Shown piece by piece: positions 6,545-10,920 of a stretch of DNA of 50,685 bases. Origin of the DNA: Acidimicrobiaceae bacterium (GTDB lineage Bacteria > Actinomycetota > Acidimicrobiia > Acidimicrobiales > RAAP-2); the NCBI GenBank assembly GCA_013044265.1, contig JABEUQ010000064.1:1-50685 (forward strand). The letters are read 5' to 3'. Positions within the stretch are counted from its first letter, which is position 1, and every line of letters begins with the position of its first letter. Position numbers and translations under genes: made by a program. The notes beneath the pieces are model-generated. The model made no database searches, was not told the origin of the DNA, and worked only from the letters and a program-made list of their open reading frames with translations.

Positions 6545-7213
6545 TCACCAGAGGCCCGGCAGCAAACGCCAGCGAACGTGCTGGCGATATCGCGCGTAGG
6601 CCGACGACTCGGTGAGCAGTCGCTCCTCGGCTCGGGCTCGTCCGACATTACAGCCAGTGATGACGACCATCACCATGACGTTGCGCCACGAGATGCTCTG
6701 CAGGACGTAGCCCAGTTGCATCACGACGTACGAAGCGTAGAGCGGATGTCGAACAACCGCGTAGGGTCCGGCGACTTTGAGTCCTCGGTCCGCGGCGGCG
6801 AATCCGAAGGAACGTCCAAGAGTTGCGAAGGACACCACGCAGACGGCGAGTCCCACTGCCTGCAAGAGCGAACCCGTGACGATCCCCCAGTGCGGGTGGG
6901 CACCGTGTGGACGAAAGAGTACGCCACCGAAGGTTCCCGCGAAGGCGAGCGCCCAGTCACTCGTGCGGATGCTCAATCGACGTGCCGGGCGTCGCACTAG
7001 GTAGGCCAGGACGACCCAGAGTTGTTCGCCAAGGAAGCCGGCGCCGATGAGTGAGCGGGTGACTTCGTAGTGCCGATAGCCCGACCACGCGAACCAGCCG
7101 GCGCCGGCGGCCCCCACGACGTTGGCCACACCCCGGCTCACCTGCGTAGTGCGCGGCGAGGTAGGCGACGCGCCACGTGGCGGCGGGCGAAGGTTCGTGG
7201 GCACCGGACTCAC
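6545..7213 (-). CDS. Isoprenylcysteine carboxyl methyltransferase-like membrane protein
   Basis: This is a predicted multi-pass S-adenosylmethionine-dependent methyltransferase of the ICMT/PEMT fold, 222 residues from the GTG at 7213. The C-terminal signature is clear: GPYAVVRHPLYASY, then a hydrophobic helix, then RARAEERLL and YARYRQHVRWRLLP. Bacterial members methylate small or lipid substrates that are mostly unknown, so no reaction is assigned. The GTG overlaps the DoxX stop as GTGA, which fits translational coupling. An ATG at 7246 would add 11 residues and overlap DoxX by 37 bases. It is the last gene of the sigma-factor run and is followed by a palindrome. Confidence 0.8.
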   Translation of the reverse strand: MSPVPTNLRPPPRGASPTSPRTTQVSRGVANVVGAAGAGWFAWSGYRHYEVTRSLIGAGFLGEQLWVVLAYLVRRPARRLSIRTSDWALAFAGTFGGVLFRPHGAHPHWGIVTGSLLQAVGLAVCVVSFATLGRSFGFAAADRGLKVAGPYAVVRHPLYASYVVMQLGYVLQSISWRNVMVMVVITGCNVGRARAEERLLTESSAYARYRQHVRWRLLPGLW

Positions 7214-7743
7214 GGCGTCACCGGGGCCGAGGACGAAGCGGCGCATTGCAGTCGTCGCCCCCACAGGGTGTCGACGCTCAGTCGCCCGGCCCCGAAGATC
7301 ACGACGACCACCGACAAGACGCACAGTGTCAAGTTGAACTCGTAGCCCGGCGTCGTGGAGAGTGAGTTGATCCCGTTGGTCCACGTGACCGTGATCATGG
7401 CCATTATCTGGTCCCCTGCGAGGGCGAGGCCCGCCACCCGCGTCAGGAGCCCGAGCGCCATGGCGCACGCACCGCCGAATTCGATCACGCCACCAAGGAC
7501 CGCGAAGAACATGCCCGGTCGCAGGTGTGCGGTTCCGGCGAAGTACACCGCGGTGCGGTTCAGACCGGGTCCGTGGAACCAACCGAAGAGCTTGCCCGCG
7601 CCGTAGTAGGTGAATATCCACACGAGGGCGACCCGTACTGCCAGAAGAGCGAAGTCGGCGCCCACCGCGCCCGGCGTGGCGCGCAGCAGGGTGCGTGCAA
7701 GCAGGGGCGCACGCTCGCCGCGAGCGGCGGGCGACGTCGCCAC
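7210..7743 (-). CDS. DoxX family membrane protein
   Basis: This 177-residue integral membrane protein has about four hydrophobic helices. It shows DoxX-family features: RVALVWIFTYYGAGKLFGWF in the first helix, PGMFFAVLGGVIEFGGACAMALG and a final helix ending in VDTLWGRR. DoxX proteins include a subunit of archaeal thiosulfate:quinone oxidoreductase and mycobacterial proteins of redox stress, but most have no known function. The GTG start shares one base with the stop of the upstream hydroxylase gene (TAGTG), so the two are probably translated together. Confidence 0.85.
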   Translation of the reverse strand: MATSPAARGERAPLLARTLLRATPGAVGADFALLAVRVALVWIFTYYGAGKLFGWFHGPGLNRTAVYFAGTAHLRPGMFFAVLGGVIEFGGACAMALGLLTRVAGLALAGDQIMAMITVTWTNGINSLSTTPGYEFNLTLCVLSVVVVIFGAGRLSVDTLWGRRLQCAASSSAPVTP

Positions 7744-8735
7744 TAGCGCGTCCCCTCAGGGGACCGGTCGTCATCGAGTCGACGAAAGGGTGCGACGAGT
7801 TGTGCCAGGACGACCACCACGTGCCGAGGCCGATCGCCAGCTTGTTCGACGAGTAGTGGCCGCCCGGGTAGACCGGTGTCGATGCGAATCGTGGCGGAGG
7901 TGGGAAAGACGGCGCGATGTGAGAGTTGATCCCAAATGGTGAGGGCGAAACCAAGATTTACGTCTTGACGGCCCTCGAGTCGGTGGTGGATGCGGTGATA
8001 GTTGGGGCTCACGAAGATTCGTCCCAACGGGCCGAAACTCAAGTTGGTGTTGGAGTGCTCGAAGGCTACGATGGCCGCGTAGGCGACGAGCAGCGCGGTG
8101 GGAACGGCGCCGTTCGCCAGCAGGATGACCCCCGGTACCAAGGTGATGAGGTACGACACGTGGATCAGCGGATGGGTACGAAAGACGGTGAGTACGCTCA
8201 TGTCCTCTTGGGAGTGGTGCAATTCGTGAAAGCGCCAGAGCATCTCGACGCGGTGATTCGCCAAGTGGGCCAACCAATTACATGCGTCCATCGCCACGAA
8301 GATGACGCCAATGACGACCCAGTGCGGAAGGCGCCCCAGACGGGGCGCCACGATCCAGGGTGCGCCACGACGAACCACCTCGGAGAACGATAACGACAGT
8401 GCCACCACGAGGGGGGCGACGAGGGTGGCGTTGAGAACGGTGTAGAGCGCGGCGTGTCGATAACCGCGTGCGAAGACCGGTCGTCGCTGCGCAGGGCGCA
8501 GGCGTTCCACCACGAGGAAGACGCCGAGGGACGCTACCGTCACTGGCCCGACCAGGACGACGCGAAGGTTGGTCATGGTCGCGACGAAACTGGCGCCGCC
8601 CCAGCGATTGGCCGTTCCAACCGCGATGAGCACGATGGCCACGGCGACGATGCTGAACGCGGGGAGGTAGAGATGCGAGTTGTACCACCGTCGACGTGTC
8701 GGCCCCGCTGTTGGACCTCTCGTGGCGGCCCTCAC
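7743..8735 (-). CDS. Sterol desaturase / fatty acid hydroxylase superfamily protein
   Basis: This membrane-bound diiron enzyme, about 330 residues, should hydroxylate or desaturate a lipid. The eight-histidine motif is visible as HLANH, HELHH, a lone His in FEHSNTN and HRIHH, with hydrophobic helices before and between. The start is uncertain. GTG at 8735 leaves 16 bases after the preceding gene; the frame stays open to 8888, but that would overlap the previous gene by 137 bases and add a low-complexity basic stretch. It lies within the sigma-factor run, between a secreted protein and DoxX, which points to envelope or lipid remodelling (inference). Confidence 0.85.
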   Translation of the reverse strand: MRAATRGPTAGPTRRRWYNSHLYLPAFSIVAVAIVLIAVGTANRWGGASFVATMTNLRVVLVGPVTVASLGVFLVVERLRPAQRRPVFARGYRHAALYTVLNATLVAPLVVALSLSFSEVVRRGAPWIVAPRLGRLPHWVVIGVIFVAMDACNWLAHLANHRVEMLWRFHELHHSQEDMSVLTVFRTHPLIHVSYLITLVPGVILLANGAVPTALLVAYAAIVAFEHSNTNLSFGPLGRIFVSPNYHRIHHRLEGRQDVNLGFALTIWDQLSHRAVFPTSATIRIDTGLPGRPLLVEQAGDRPRHVVVVLAQLVAPFRRLDDDRSPEGTR

Positions 8736-8751
8736 GTTGTGGTGTCGCAGG

Positions 8752-9315
8752 TCAAAAACCGATACCACCGGCACCTCCCCCCGCGGTGGCCGTCGAAGTC
8801 GAAGTCGACGTCGTGGTCGGAGTTGATACGCCGCCGTTGGCGGGCTTGACCACGACCACTGACCACTTACCCCACGTATCGCTCTCATTGCCTCTGACCT
8901 GACCGGGAGCGGTGTCCAAGACGAACCAGTAGAGGGGCCTGCCCCCGTAGGTCACTTGGAGTCGTCCCCCCGCACGCTTGATTGTCCCGATCTTCGCGAC
9001 GCTCACGCCACGACCCGCCGTCACCTTGGTCGATCCCTTGGGGAGAAGCACTTCGGGCCAGTAGGAGAGGCATTTTGCAGTACAGGCGATCTTGGAAGGA
9101 GTCAACGTGTACACAGTGCGCGTGCTCTGGAGGATCTCCCCGAAGTTCTTCGTGGTGAGCGTCGAAATCACCAGACCCGCGGGTGAGTGGCCGCTGGCGG
9201 CGCTCGCCGTGGCGCTACCGGCGAGGCCAGCGAGTAATACCGAGAGGCTCGCAATGGTGACGACGATACGATTTCCCTGGGCGCGGGGTGATCGGTGTGC
9301 GGGGGTGATTTTCAT
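8752..9315 (-). CDS. Secreted repeat protein, COG4315/Lipoprotein_15 type
   Basis: This is an exported protein of 187 residues with an N-terminal signal peptide (hydrophobic IVVTIASLSVLLAGLAGSA, then ATASAAS) and no lipobox cysteine. It has the features of the 'secreted repeat of unknown function' family: a two-Cys segment CTAKCLSYWPEV, and GGRPLYWFVLDTAPGQVRG near the end of the domain. A Ser/Thr-rich tail (TPTTTSTSTSTA) ends in a glycine-rich stretch. The family's role is unknown. The start is ATG with AGGAGA about ten bases upstream. Its leader carries the same promoter-like motif as the sigma-factor gene, so it is the best candidate target of that sigma factor. Confidence 0.88.
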   Translation of the reverse strand: MKITPAHRSPRAQGNRIVVTIASLSVLLAGLAGSATASAASGHSPAGLVISTLTTKNFGEILQSTRTVYTLTPSKIACTAKCLSYWPEVLLPKGSTKVTAGRGVSVAKIGTIKRAGGRLQVTYGGRPLYWFVLDTAPGQVRGNESDTWGKWSVVVVKPANGGVSTPTTTSTSTSTATAGGGAGGIGF

Positions 9316-9404
9316 CGAACGGGTCTCCTGTGGTTAAGGGGGTGCTGAACGCAGAGAGGGCGACCCGTGGCACGAGTGCTGGTGGCCTCCCTCACTACTG
9401 AGTT

Positions 9405-9432
9405 GTACGCAGGGCGGACCACGAGGGATCAC
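9405..9432 (-). promoter_or_regulatory. Candidate ECF promoter of the secreted-protein gene
   Basis: Read on the minus strand, GTGATCCCT (9432-9424) is followed after 14 bases by CGTAC (9409-9405). The same two blocks with the same 14-base spacer lie upstream of the sigma-factor gene at 10726-10699. The spacers themselves differ, as expected for a promoter rather than a copied segment. It would give a leader of about 80 bases. Confidence 0.6.
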
Positions 9433-9452
9433 TCCCGAGGGAGAAATTTCTC
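9432..9452. repeat. Two adjoining palindromes at the anti-sigma stop
   Basis: CTCCCGAGGGAG at 9432-9443 and GAGAAATTTCTC at 9441-9452 are both perfect palindromes and share three bases. They lie at the 3' end of the anti-sigma gene, just upstream of the candidate promoter of the next gene, and may end or pause the upstream transcript. Confidence 0.4.
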
Positions 9453-10116
9453 AGGTCGACACCGTGGCCGAGGCGAGCACGTGACCCTTGGCGTCGGTCA
9501 CCCGTGCGCTGCGGACGGCGCTGCTCGCCGCGTTCACCTGTGCGGCCCACGCACCGTAGCCGTGGACCACGTTGAAGACTCCCACGTCGAGGACGTGACC
9601 GTTCTTCAAGGTGACCGTGCACCAGGCGGTGCCTGACCACCCGGCGTCGTCGAAGGACATATAAATCCATGTGGGTGTCCCCGCGCTTAACCAGACCTGC
9701 CCGAGGGTGCGGCCCGCCGACGTGAGAGCTTCGCTAATCGGTGCCGCGGTGCTGAGCGAGGGCGTGTTCGGGCGCTGCGTCGGCGCGTGGTGACCAAGGG
9801 TGAACCCGGCGGCTACGAGTACCACCGCCGCGGCCACGAGTGCGACCCCTCGCAGTGCGCGCACGGGTTGACGCGCCGACTCGCCATGGTAGCGATCGAG
9901 GAGGCGTGACTCGAACCCCACCGGCGGTTCGGCCCGGGGCGCCAACTCAACGAGGCGGTCGCCCACGGCCGAGAGGGCATCGAGTTCGCCGCGGCACTGC
10001 GGACACAACGCCACGTGCGCGAGAACGCGCGAACGCTCGCGACCGGTCAAGATGCCGAGAGCGAATTCGCTCAGGACCGTGCTGACCTCGACGCACTCAG
10101 GGTTCGAATTCGTCAC
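9451..10116 (-). CDS. Zinc-finger anti-sigma factor, RskA-like
   Basis: This is the membrane anti-sigma factor of the adjacent ECF sigma factor, 221 residues. The cytoplasmic N-terminal domain has the ZAS motif His-x3-Cys-x2-Cys (HVALCPQC) preceded by a helix with LSEFALGILTGRE. A single transmembrane helix follows at roughly 100-120 (VALVAAAVVLVAAGFTLG), then an extracytoplasmic domain that resembles the C-terminal part of RskA. The start GTG at 10116 overlaps the sigma-factor stop as GTGA, the usual coupling for a sigma/anti-sigma pair. The open frame extends to 10254, but that overlaps the sigma gene. What signal the outer domain senses is not evident. Confidence 0.9.
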   Translation of the reverse strand: MTNSNPECVEVSTVLSEFALGILTGRERSRVLAHVALCPQCRGELDALSAVGDRLVELAPRAEPPVGFESRLLDRYHGESARQPVRALRGVALVAAAVVLVAAGFTLGHHAPTQRPNTPSLSTAAPISEALTSAGRTLGQVWLSAGTPTWIYMSFDDAGWSGTAWCTVTLKNGHVLDVGVFNVVHGYGAWAAQVNAASSAVRSARVTDAKGHVLASATVST

Positions 10117-10691
10117 GGCATCTCCTCGAAGACGGCGTCGCGCAGGCGTATCATGCCCAAGCGCAGTCGACTCTTGGCGGTTCCGAGAGGGATTGATTCG
10201 CTGGTCGCGATCTCGGCGGCGGTACGACCGTAGACGGCGGCTAGTACCACGCAACGTCGCTGGTCGAGGGGTAGCGAGGTGAGTGCCGTCCAGGCGCGCG
10301 CTGCCTCGTCGGCGTTCGCCGCCACGTCCTCGGGGGGCGTATCACGACTCACCAAGTTCACGAAGACGAGGTCCCCAGGGGCGACGGGCGTTGCCCGACG
10401 TACGCGAAGTGCGTCGATGGCGAGGTTACGGGTGATGGTGAGGACCCAGGTGCTCACCGCGGCGCGGCGCACGTCGTAGACCGCGGCGTGGCGAAAGATG
10501 CGAAGGAAAGCTTCTTGAGCGACGTCTTCAGCGATACCGGGGTCACCCACGATCCCGAGTGCCAGACCGAAGAGGCGACGCTGGTATCGTCGCACGAAGA
10601 GCAACGTCGCCTCGTTGTCACCCAGCGCGATGCCCGAGAGCAGGGTCTCGTCCGAGACCTCGTCGTCAGTGTCGCGTCGTCGTATCACCAC
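10113..10691 (-). CDS. ECF (sigma-70 family, group 4) RNA polymerase sigma factor
   Basis: This 192-residue ECF sigma factor carries region 2 (GIVGDPGIAEDVAQEAFLRI and a WVLTITRNLAID block) and region 4 (LPLDQRRCVVLAAVYGRTAAEIA, then IPLGTAKSRLRLGMIRLRDA). The linker is short and there is no extra C-terminal domain. The start is one of two tandem GTG codons at 10691 and 10688; the frame is open to an ATG at 10778, but that would add about 30 residues not expected in the family and would put the candidate promoter inside the gene. CGTACTAT lies just before the GTGs, so the message is probably leaderless. It is first in a minus-strand run of six genes and is coupled to its anti-sigma factor. 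Confidence 0.9.
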   Translation of the reverse strand: MVIRRRDTDDEVSDETLLSGIALGDNEATLLFVRRYQRRLFGLALGIVGDPGIAEDVAQEAFLRIFRHAAVYDVRRAAVSTWVLTITRNLAIDALRVRRATPVAPGDLVFVNLVSRDTPPEDVAANADEAARAWTALTSLPLDQRRCVVLAAVYGRTAAEIATSESIPLGTAKSRLRLGMIRLRDAVFEEMP

Positions 10692-10698
10692 CCTGATA

Positions 10699-10726
10699 GT
10701 ACGGTGCGGGTCCGGCCAGGGATCAC
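10699..10726 (-). promoter_or_regulatory. Candidate autoregulatory ECF promoter
   Basis: Minus-strand GTGATCCCT (10726-10718), a 14-base spacer and CGTAC (10703-10699) match the arrangement upstream of the secreted-protein gene exactly. The -10 element lies 8-11 bases before the GTG codons, so transcription would begin at or next to the start codon. Autoregulation is common for ECF factors. Confidence 0.6.
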
Positions 10727-10832: not shown

Positions 10833-10920
10833 TGGCGGAGGGAGTGGGATTTGAACCCACGGTGGGCAAGCCCACGCCGGTTTTCAAGACCGGTACATTC
10901 GGCCACTCTGTCATCCCTCC
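10833..10920 (-). tRNA. tRNA-Ser (anticodon UGA)
   Basis: The minus strand folds as a class II tRNA. The acceptor GGAGGGA pairs with TCCCTCC, the anticodon loop is CTTGAAA with anticodon TGA, the long variable arm is GC-rich and the T-arm is GTGGGTTCAAATCCCAC. The discriminator is G and CCA is encoded. It lies downstream of typA on the same strand. Confidence 0.96.

Follow-up and report, generated by a model that had tools for sequence, protein, structure and literature searches.

Promoters with a TGATC block and a CGTA block have been described for proteobacterial ECF sigma factors of the RpoE/ChrR type. Those of Shewanella RpoE2 consist of TGATCC and CGTATT, transcription starts having been mapped for rpoE2 and pgpD, and the N17 spacing of the core TGATC-N17-CGTA is seen in the table entries of that study (PMC4336711). 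For the sigmaE/ChrR system of Vibrio the pattern is given as TGATC-N16-18-CGTAW (PMC5241685), and in Pseudomonas PSPTO_1043 was linked by ChIP to TGATCC-N16-CGTA, with a peak upstream of its own gene (PMC5507510). The targets named in two of these sources for such ECF11 systems are a photolyase/cfa set (PMC4336711, PMC5507510). Two other ECF sigma factors are pertinent here: SigK of actinobacteria (SigK/RskA, ECF18/ECF19), for which autoregulation and control of the antigen genes mpt70/mpt83 have been reported (PMC7509140), and SigU of Streptomyces, in whose regulon SCO0930 is listed (PMC6295645).

The locus studied here belongs to a soil actinobacterium and lies in a window of 50,685 nucleotides (the whole stretch of DNA analysed, contig C194 of a draft genome of 2,796,923 bases in 246 contigs, 90.4% complete). 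Read along the minus strand, it is composed of a first promoter-like site, an ECF sigma gene, an anti-sigma gene, a second site, and the genes of a Lipoprotein_15 protein, an FA_hydroxylase family protein, a DoxX-family protein and a PEMT-bearing frame (Table 1). The two sites are copies of the motif GTGATCCCT-N14-CGTAC that the first-pass annotation had singled out, and both were recovered where it had placed them, with 0 mismatches and with spacers that differ. The conserved core of the motif in related genomes is TGATC-N17-CGTA, and the outer letters (the G before, CCT and C after) are weaker preferences. This core is the published RpoE/ChrR-type promoter, TGATCC-N16-CGTA, in another notation, and the two sites of the window agree with this ECF11 sequence. 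The suggestion that the sigma factor may have its own specificity was borne out in part: the left block is not the common GGAAC and is distinctive with respect to the closest sister sigmas (see below), but it is not new as a promoter type, because TGATC..CGTA is already in print for RpoE/ChrR-type sigmas. A tRNA-Ser gene (tga, 10833-10920) is found on the same strand just upstream of the sigma operon; a TypA/BipA gene (by Pfam) is also located upstream.

Table 1. Features of the sigma locus (positions in the window; all on the minus strand)
Feature	Position	Strand	Remarks
Site 1, putative autoregulatory promoter	10699..10726	-	TGATC 10725-10721, CGTA 10703-10700, N17; exact match
ECF sigma gene	10113..10691	-	Pfam Sigma70_r2 and r4_2; start GTG 10691
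Recognition-helix codons	10158..10172	-	Ser 10172-10170 (a) and Leu 10160-10158 (b) of GTAK[S]RLR[L]
Anti-sigma gene	9451..10116	-	N-terminal zf-HC2 (Hx3Cx2C), Pfam E 9e-7; C-terminal domain
Site 2, putative target promoter	9405..9432	-	TGATC 9431-9427, CGTA 9409-9406; exact match, same place in relatives
Target leader, untranslated	9316..9404	-	89 nt; Shine-Dalgarno-like AGGAG before ATG 9315
Secreted Lipoprotein_15 (COG4315-type) protein	8752..9315	-	Pfam E 3.6e-10; predicted primary target
FA_hydroxylase family protein	7743..8888	-	Pfam E 3e-22; ORF maximum, true start probably downstream
DoxX-family membrane protein	7210..7743	-	Pfam DoxX E 5e-14
PEMT/ICMT-type methyltransferase-bearing frame	6545..7210	-	Pfam PEMT E 1e-7

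The sigma protein has sigma regions 2 and 4 only (Pfam r2 at residues 61-128, r4_2 at 163-212), joined by a short linker, as in ECF (group IV) sigma factors; besides related region 4 models no further family was matched at E 0.001. Its longest open reading frame begins at ATG 10778 and would cover site 1. We have therefore relied on the agreement of frame and length with relatives, which places the start at GTG 10691, 7 nt after CGTAC; the length from this codon to the stop is the same as in the related loci L141 and L143, and in relatives such as L140-L143 an ATG is possible 9 nt after the -10 block. With the start so corrected, the motif does lie immediately upstream of the sigma gene, as had been claimed. 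The sigma mRNA is probably nearly or fully leaderless, given the usual distance between an ECF -10 element and its transcription start.

The anti-sigma is co-encoded with the sigma factor, another common feature of ECF systems, its start (GTG 10116) overlapping the sigma stop. It has one hydrophobic segment (topology read by eye), which suggests a membrane anchor, and zinc motifs are reported to be common among membrane-bound anti-sigmas (about 48%; PMC7406223). Site 2 starts 18 nt after its stop. The assignment of the next gene to Lipoprotein_15 (PF03640) is above the gathering cut-off (39.6 against 24.4 bits), and a search of the organism's own genome matched this family at that gene only. 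The protein is 34-59% identical to 14 relatives, among which C78, C82 and W86 are invariant. Of the 14 loci from the same genus (L140-L153), which include truncated ones, 11 encode an FA_hydroxylase relative. The FA_hydroxylase and DoxX genes are probable members of an operon headed by site 2, and the PEMT/ICMT-type frame is a possible one.

In the whole draft genome the exact motif occurs twice, both times inside the window, whereas under a first-order model one would expect 0.0004 exact copies for the window and 0.022 for the genome. The scan allowing one mismatch that the first-pass annotation had recommended added a single site; another 15 have two mismatches. Only exact copies are informative, because matches with three mismatches are no commoner in the window than expected (4 versus 4.9). 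Motif copies scattered through coding DNA would have spoken against promoters. For the full motif there is no such scatter, as both exact copies are placed as promoters, but the bare core TGATC-N17-CGTA does show it: two of its 21 matches in the genome are the known sites, and 16 of the other 19 fall inside (crudely called) coding DNA. With 17.7 matches expected (a control with the pattern reversed gave 4), the bare core is not specific on its own. Among its matches, one (L264) overlaps the start of a frame and another (C32:9583-9608, L254) is followed, after 76 nt, by a called frame that has a hydrophobic stretch, a possible third target in this genome. The last of the 19, a third genomic copy, TGATCTCT..CGTA at C122:23140, sits between convergent genes with no called gene downstream and was taken as background. 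Further targets may be missing, since the draft is 90% complete.

A way to separate promoters from a fortuitous repeat is to look at the same places in other genomes. Among 100 related genomes, that of the window counted, 29 contain relatives of the sigma factor (E 1e-20), and those with names include Acidimicrobiaceae MAGs from bog and palsa. In 19 aligned loci (the window and 18 others), a site with at most three mismatches precedes the sigma gene in 17 and follows the anti-sigma gene in 15. L144 and L054 gave no second site after the anti-sigma gene. For L153 and L050, one of the two places has a best-matching string that is unlikely to be the site, and better ones were seen in other comparisons; the second site of L150 has four mismatches with its full core intact. 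The resulting site table holds 18 first and 17 second sites (L054 appears in neither set, L144 only in the first). Its sites were chosen by ATC and CGTA, so that these letters prove nothing by themselves, and the second sites were selected by the whole motif. The TG before ATC, free of the selection at the first sites, is present in 18 of 18. That the two copies arose by chance, or by recent duplication of one short segment, would agree with the existence of just two exact copies. Their spacers differ, however, such a motif is hardly expected even once per genome, and both placements are conserved across species, on which ground the chance repeat was rejected; we give this explanation practically no credence.

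The sites also follow the sigma gene from genome to genome. In 62 genomes of the genus the string TGATCYCT-N14-CGTA has 28 exact matches (1 for the reversed-pattern control), of which 6 lie before a sigma gene, 11 before the Lipoprotein_15 gene of the operon, 3 before other Lipoprotein_15 paralogs and 8 elsewhere. Fifteen of the 62 genomes have a close sigma ortholog (at least 62% identity), and 14 of these contain a match, as do 5 of the 47 others (p 5e-9), where the 47 include one genome outside the sigma search (G100) and four that carry a more distant version of the sigma factor. Counting the core within 900 nt upstream of the domain, 19 of 24 Lipoprotein_15 genes in the 15 sigma genomes have it, versus 0 of 21 in genomes without the sigma factor (p 3e-8), although for one of the 21 (L314), located at the edge of its contig, a site would have escaped notice. 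The sigma-less set is made up of 30 of the 41 genus genomes without a sigma match. Repeated copies of the domain within a frame were removed before counting (2 rows from the sigma genomes, 10 from the sigma-less ones), as were, from the sigma-less ones, two distinct Lipoprotein_15 genes without a locus.

We have compared recognition helices and -35 bases in 93 distinct orthologous sigma sequences, a few of them weak. ATC-N17-CGTA is found over the sigma start in 66 of the 93 and in none when a stretch of equal size within the gene is searched. Read on its opposite strand, the upstream stretch has it in 23, owing, where examined, to divergent targets, and among distant ECF loci, with a wider window, in 1 of 61 (L067). 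The strict site is absent at the sigma gene in the remaining 27 orthologs, including rows with Ser/Leu or Gly/Leu (L201, L204, L250). In the 66 with a site, the residue at position b of the helix and the base before ATC agree without exception: Leu or Met goes with G in 24 of 24, and other residues with a base other than G in 42 of 42. Position a and the first base agree nearly as well, Ser or Gly going with T in 19 of 20 and other residues with T in 0 of 46; the sole exception is L054 (Ser/Met), which has AG rather than TG. In the window's clade the site TG-ATC goes together with the helix GTAK[S]RIR[L], whereas the sister sigmas have GTAK[T]RIR[A/T/S/N/D/Q] and CA-ATC (CC or AC in four). The mixed combinations are found too, Thr with Leu together with AG-ATC (L064, L217, L226, L233) and Gly with Leu together with TG-ATC (L029, L231 and the outlying L067). 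Four genomes of the window's genus (G003, G010, G011 and G045; loci L154-L157) have a more distant sigma (48-54%) with sites of the CAATC type.

How many times these changes took place independently was estimated on a tree built with the helix columns removed. On the best tree the second position has six changes of residue, six of base and six independent pairs, all of which agree, because the table for this position has no exception. Restricting the count to well-supported branches leaves two independent pairs, too few for significance, and the first position, with two changes only, has one supported pair, which is ambiguous. The phylogenetic independence of the changes is therefore modest. 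We propose from this association that the two bases preceding ATC would be recognized by Ser (a) and Leu (b), residues 174 and 178 counted from GTG 10691. In a printed alignment, R. sphaeroides RpoE has Ser and Leu at these positions of its helix, PLGTIKSRIRLALDRLR. The positions correspond to residues of E. coli sigmaE that are close to the -35 DNA, and a covariation study of 2020 reportedly set out an ECF promoter code.

The covariation bears directly on another explanation, that the repeat is an operator, with some transcription factor binding both sites and the ECF sigma a bystander. A short dyad, GGGAGTGATCCC, does overlap the left block at site 2, but its left arm is not conserved in relatives. 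An operator would also leave unexplained the recurrence of the ATC-N17-CGTA spacing in those 66 orthologs, the identity with a published RpoE/ChrR-type promoter and a left block that varies with the recognition helix of the sigma factor. We consider it very improbable.

We found 59 Lipoprotein_15 or cupredoxin genes near these sigmas, and in 51 of them the 600 nt preceding the domain contain ATC-N17-CGTA. The proportion is inflated, since proteins first noticed beside a site contributed to the search profiles; at the same time, misses lower it, among them L041 and L066, in which a separate examination of the loci does show sites. The bias in the search leaves the base before ATC unaffected. 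At these target promoters (counted from the listing) it is G in 23 of 23 cases at Leu/Met loci, one of which (the second gene of L050) rests on a doubtful site 512 nt away, and in 0 of 28 at the others. The rule also holds in L218 (Thr/Leu), where the sigma gene lacks a site and the target promoter has AG.

In L056, L063, L041, L210-L213, L215, L216, L220 and others, a divergent copy of the promoter faces a gene for a secreted cupredoxin or Lipoprotein_15 protein. These loci, in other actinobacterial families, apparently represent the same regulon with a different layout. We examined 18 of 23 divergent loci, and 14 had a clean exported frame at first pass. By Pfam, 4 of these are Lipoprotein_15 and 10 cupredoxin-like, 7 of the latter above the Cupredoxin_1 cut-off and three (L211, L213, L216) below it. 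In the other four, profile searches identified cupredoxin relatives (L057, L206) and Lipoprotein_15 relatives (L043, L065).

With promoter, helix and targets at hand, the relationship to ECF11 can be weighed. If the sigma factor were a true ECF11 member (RpoE/ChrR) with a singlet-oxygen regulon, nothing in the system would be lineage-specific. It has the same promoter as RpoE/ChrR-type sigmas, and its best match of solved structure is R. sphaeroides RpoE (E 2.8e-17), with M. tuberculosis SigK (4nqw, 3.6e-17) a close second. In a quick tree made from 32 of the 93 orthologs together with 13 distant ECFs and two solved sigmas, however, RpoE falls outside the actinobacterial clade of 28 rows (starred in the tree) that holds both the window's sigma and its CAATC sisters, although RpoE has a long branch there and is the one ECF11 sequence, so that the placement is weak. 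In the promoters of the nearest sisters the left block is CAATC. The anti-sigma also differs from ChrR, with 18.7 bits against a cut-off of 124.5 for the ChrR model and zf-HC2 as the only Pfam match, without a match to a cupin-like domain. Lastly, the targets found here are Lipoprotein_15, FA_hydroxylase and DoxX genes, and cupredoxin genes elsewhere, in place of the photolyase/cfa set. The sigma factor of the window is probably not an ECF11 member, and we regard ECF11 membership with such a regulon as unlikely.

The best NCBIfam sigma model is that of SigK, with a score (110 bits) below its curated cut-off (226), which does not place the protein in that family, and the anti-sigma gave no match to the RskA family in Pfam (E 0.001) or NCBIfam (E 0.01). 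SigK has CCATCC as its -35 element. Our literature search found no paper joining CCATCC with SigK or COG4315 with a sigma factor, and, in the 10 of 11 papers covered, no occurrence of CAATCC/GCAATC, results that describe the search and do not show absence from print. The listing of SCO0930 under SigU is a parallel, as SCO0930 too is a Lipoprotein_15/COG4315-type exported protein under an ECF sigma, but SigU is a different sigma factor. The target protein of the window matched the SCO0930 model and no other in NCBIfam, at 57 bits, below the cut-off of 275.

Taken together, the placement of the sites, their co-occurrence with the sigma gene, the sites at extra Lipoprotein_15 paralogs and the covariation with the helix support what had been proposed at the outset from the two copies, namely an ECF sigma factor that would read its own promoter and that of one target operon. 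Judging from these sequence comparisons, both motifs are very probably promoters of the ECF sigma encoded at 10113-10691, one autoregulatory and the other serving the Lipoprotein_15 operon, with a -35 element set by the recognition helix. The zinc-type anti-sigma, presumably anchored in the membrane, would hold the sigma factor inactive until an extracytoplasmic signal frees it. The freed sigma would then transcribe its own sigma/anti-sigma operon from site 1 and, from site 2, the operon of Lipoprotein_15, FA_hydroxylase, DoxX and perhaps the methyltransferase. TGATC would act as the -35 and CGTA, 17 nt away, as the -10 element, and the Ser and Leu of the sigma4.2 helix GTAK[S]RLR[L] would determine the T and G with which the -35 element begins.

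The likeliest job of this circuit, proposed tentatively, would be a response to extracytoplasmic redox or metal stress, because the target of the same sigma in other families is a secreted cupredoxin. One regulator with either a cupredoxin or a Lipoprotein_15 target suggests a shared extracytoplasmic redox/metal role for the two. The DoxX neighbor points the same way with its match to the NCBIfam model of HvfX (copper-peptide maturation), at 43.5 bits, below the cut-off of 80. The predicted structure of the Lipoprotein_15 protein has a mean pLDDT of 57 and matched no PDB fold at an E of 0.001 or lower. This low-confidence model without a fold match is a point against such a role, and nothing further was concluded from it; by sequence, no relative of solved structure was found up to E 1.

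On a broader view, we see about an even chance that the following picture holds as a whole: a small regulon in one actinobacterial sigma family would have been recoded several times at the -35 element (CAATC, AGATC, TGATC), the switches accompanying exchanges in the helix (Thr, Ser or Gly, and Leu/Met or not), with one lineage arriving at the proteobacterial RpoE/ChrR promoter, and with a constant output of one exported redox-type protein, either a cupredoxin or the unstudied Lipoprotein_15. The promoter type is already known; the co-switching within one ortholog family and the exchange of cupredoxin and Lipoprotein_15 may be worth testing. They offer a natural case in which a sigma factor and its promoters shift specificity jointly, with two candidate residues and two candidate bases, and in which co-evolution can be tracked promoter by promoter because the regulon seems so small. 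They also link Lipoprotein_15 proteins with secreted cupredoxins, either of which the one regulator seems to have as its target, and this is a lead to the role of the functionally unknown Lipoprotein_15 family.

Two minor observations were made in the course of the comparisons. Six loci (L147, L182, L194, L180, L175 and L052) share a leader stretch with GAAACGAA shortly after the -10 element of the Lipoprotein_15 promoter, possibly a 5'-UTR element or a sign of simple relatedness. The sigma locus of a sequence labelled Acidobacteria bacterium REEB96 (L048, JAGXBH010000005.1) is the same as L020/L140 (G031:C28), from the window's genus, and the Acidobacteria label looks wrong.
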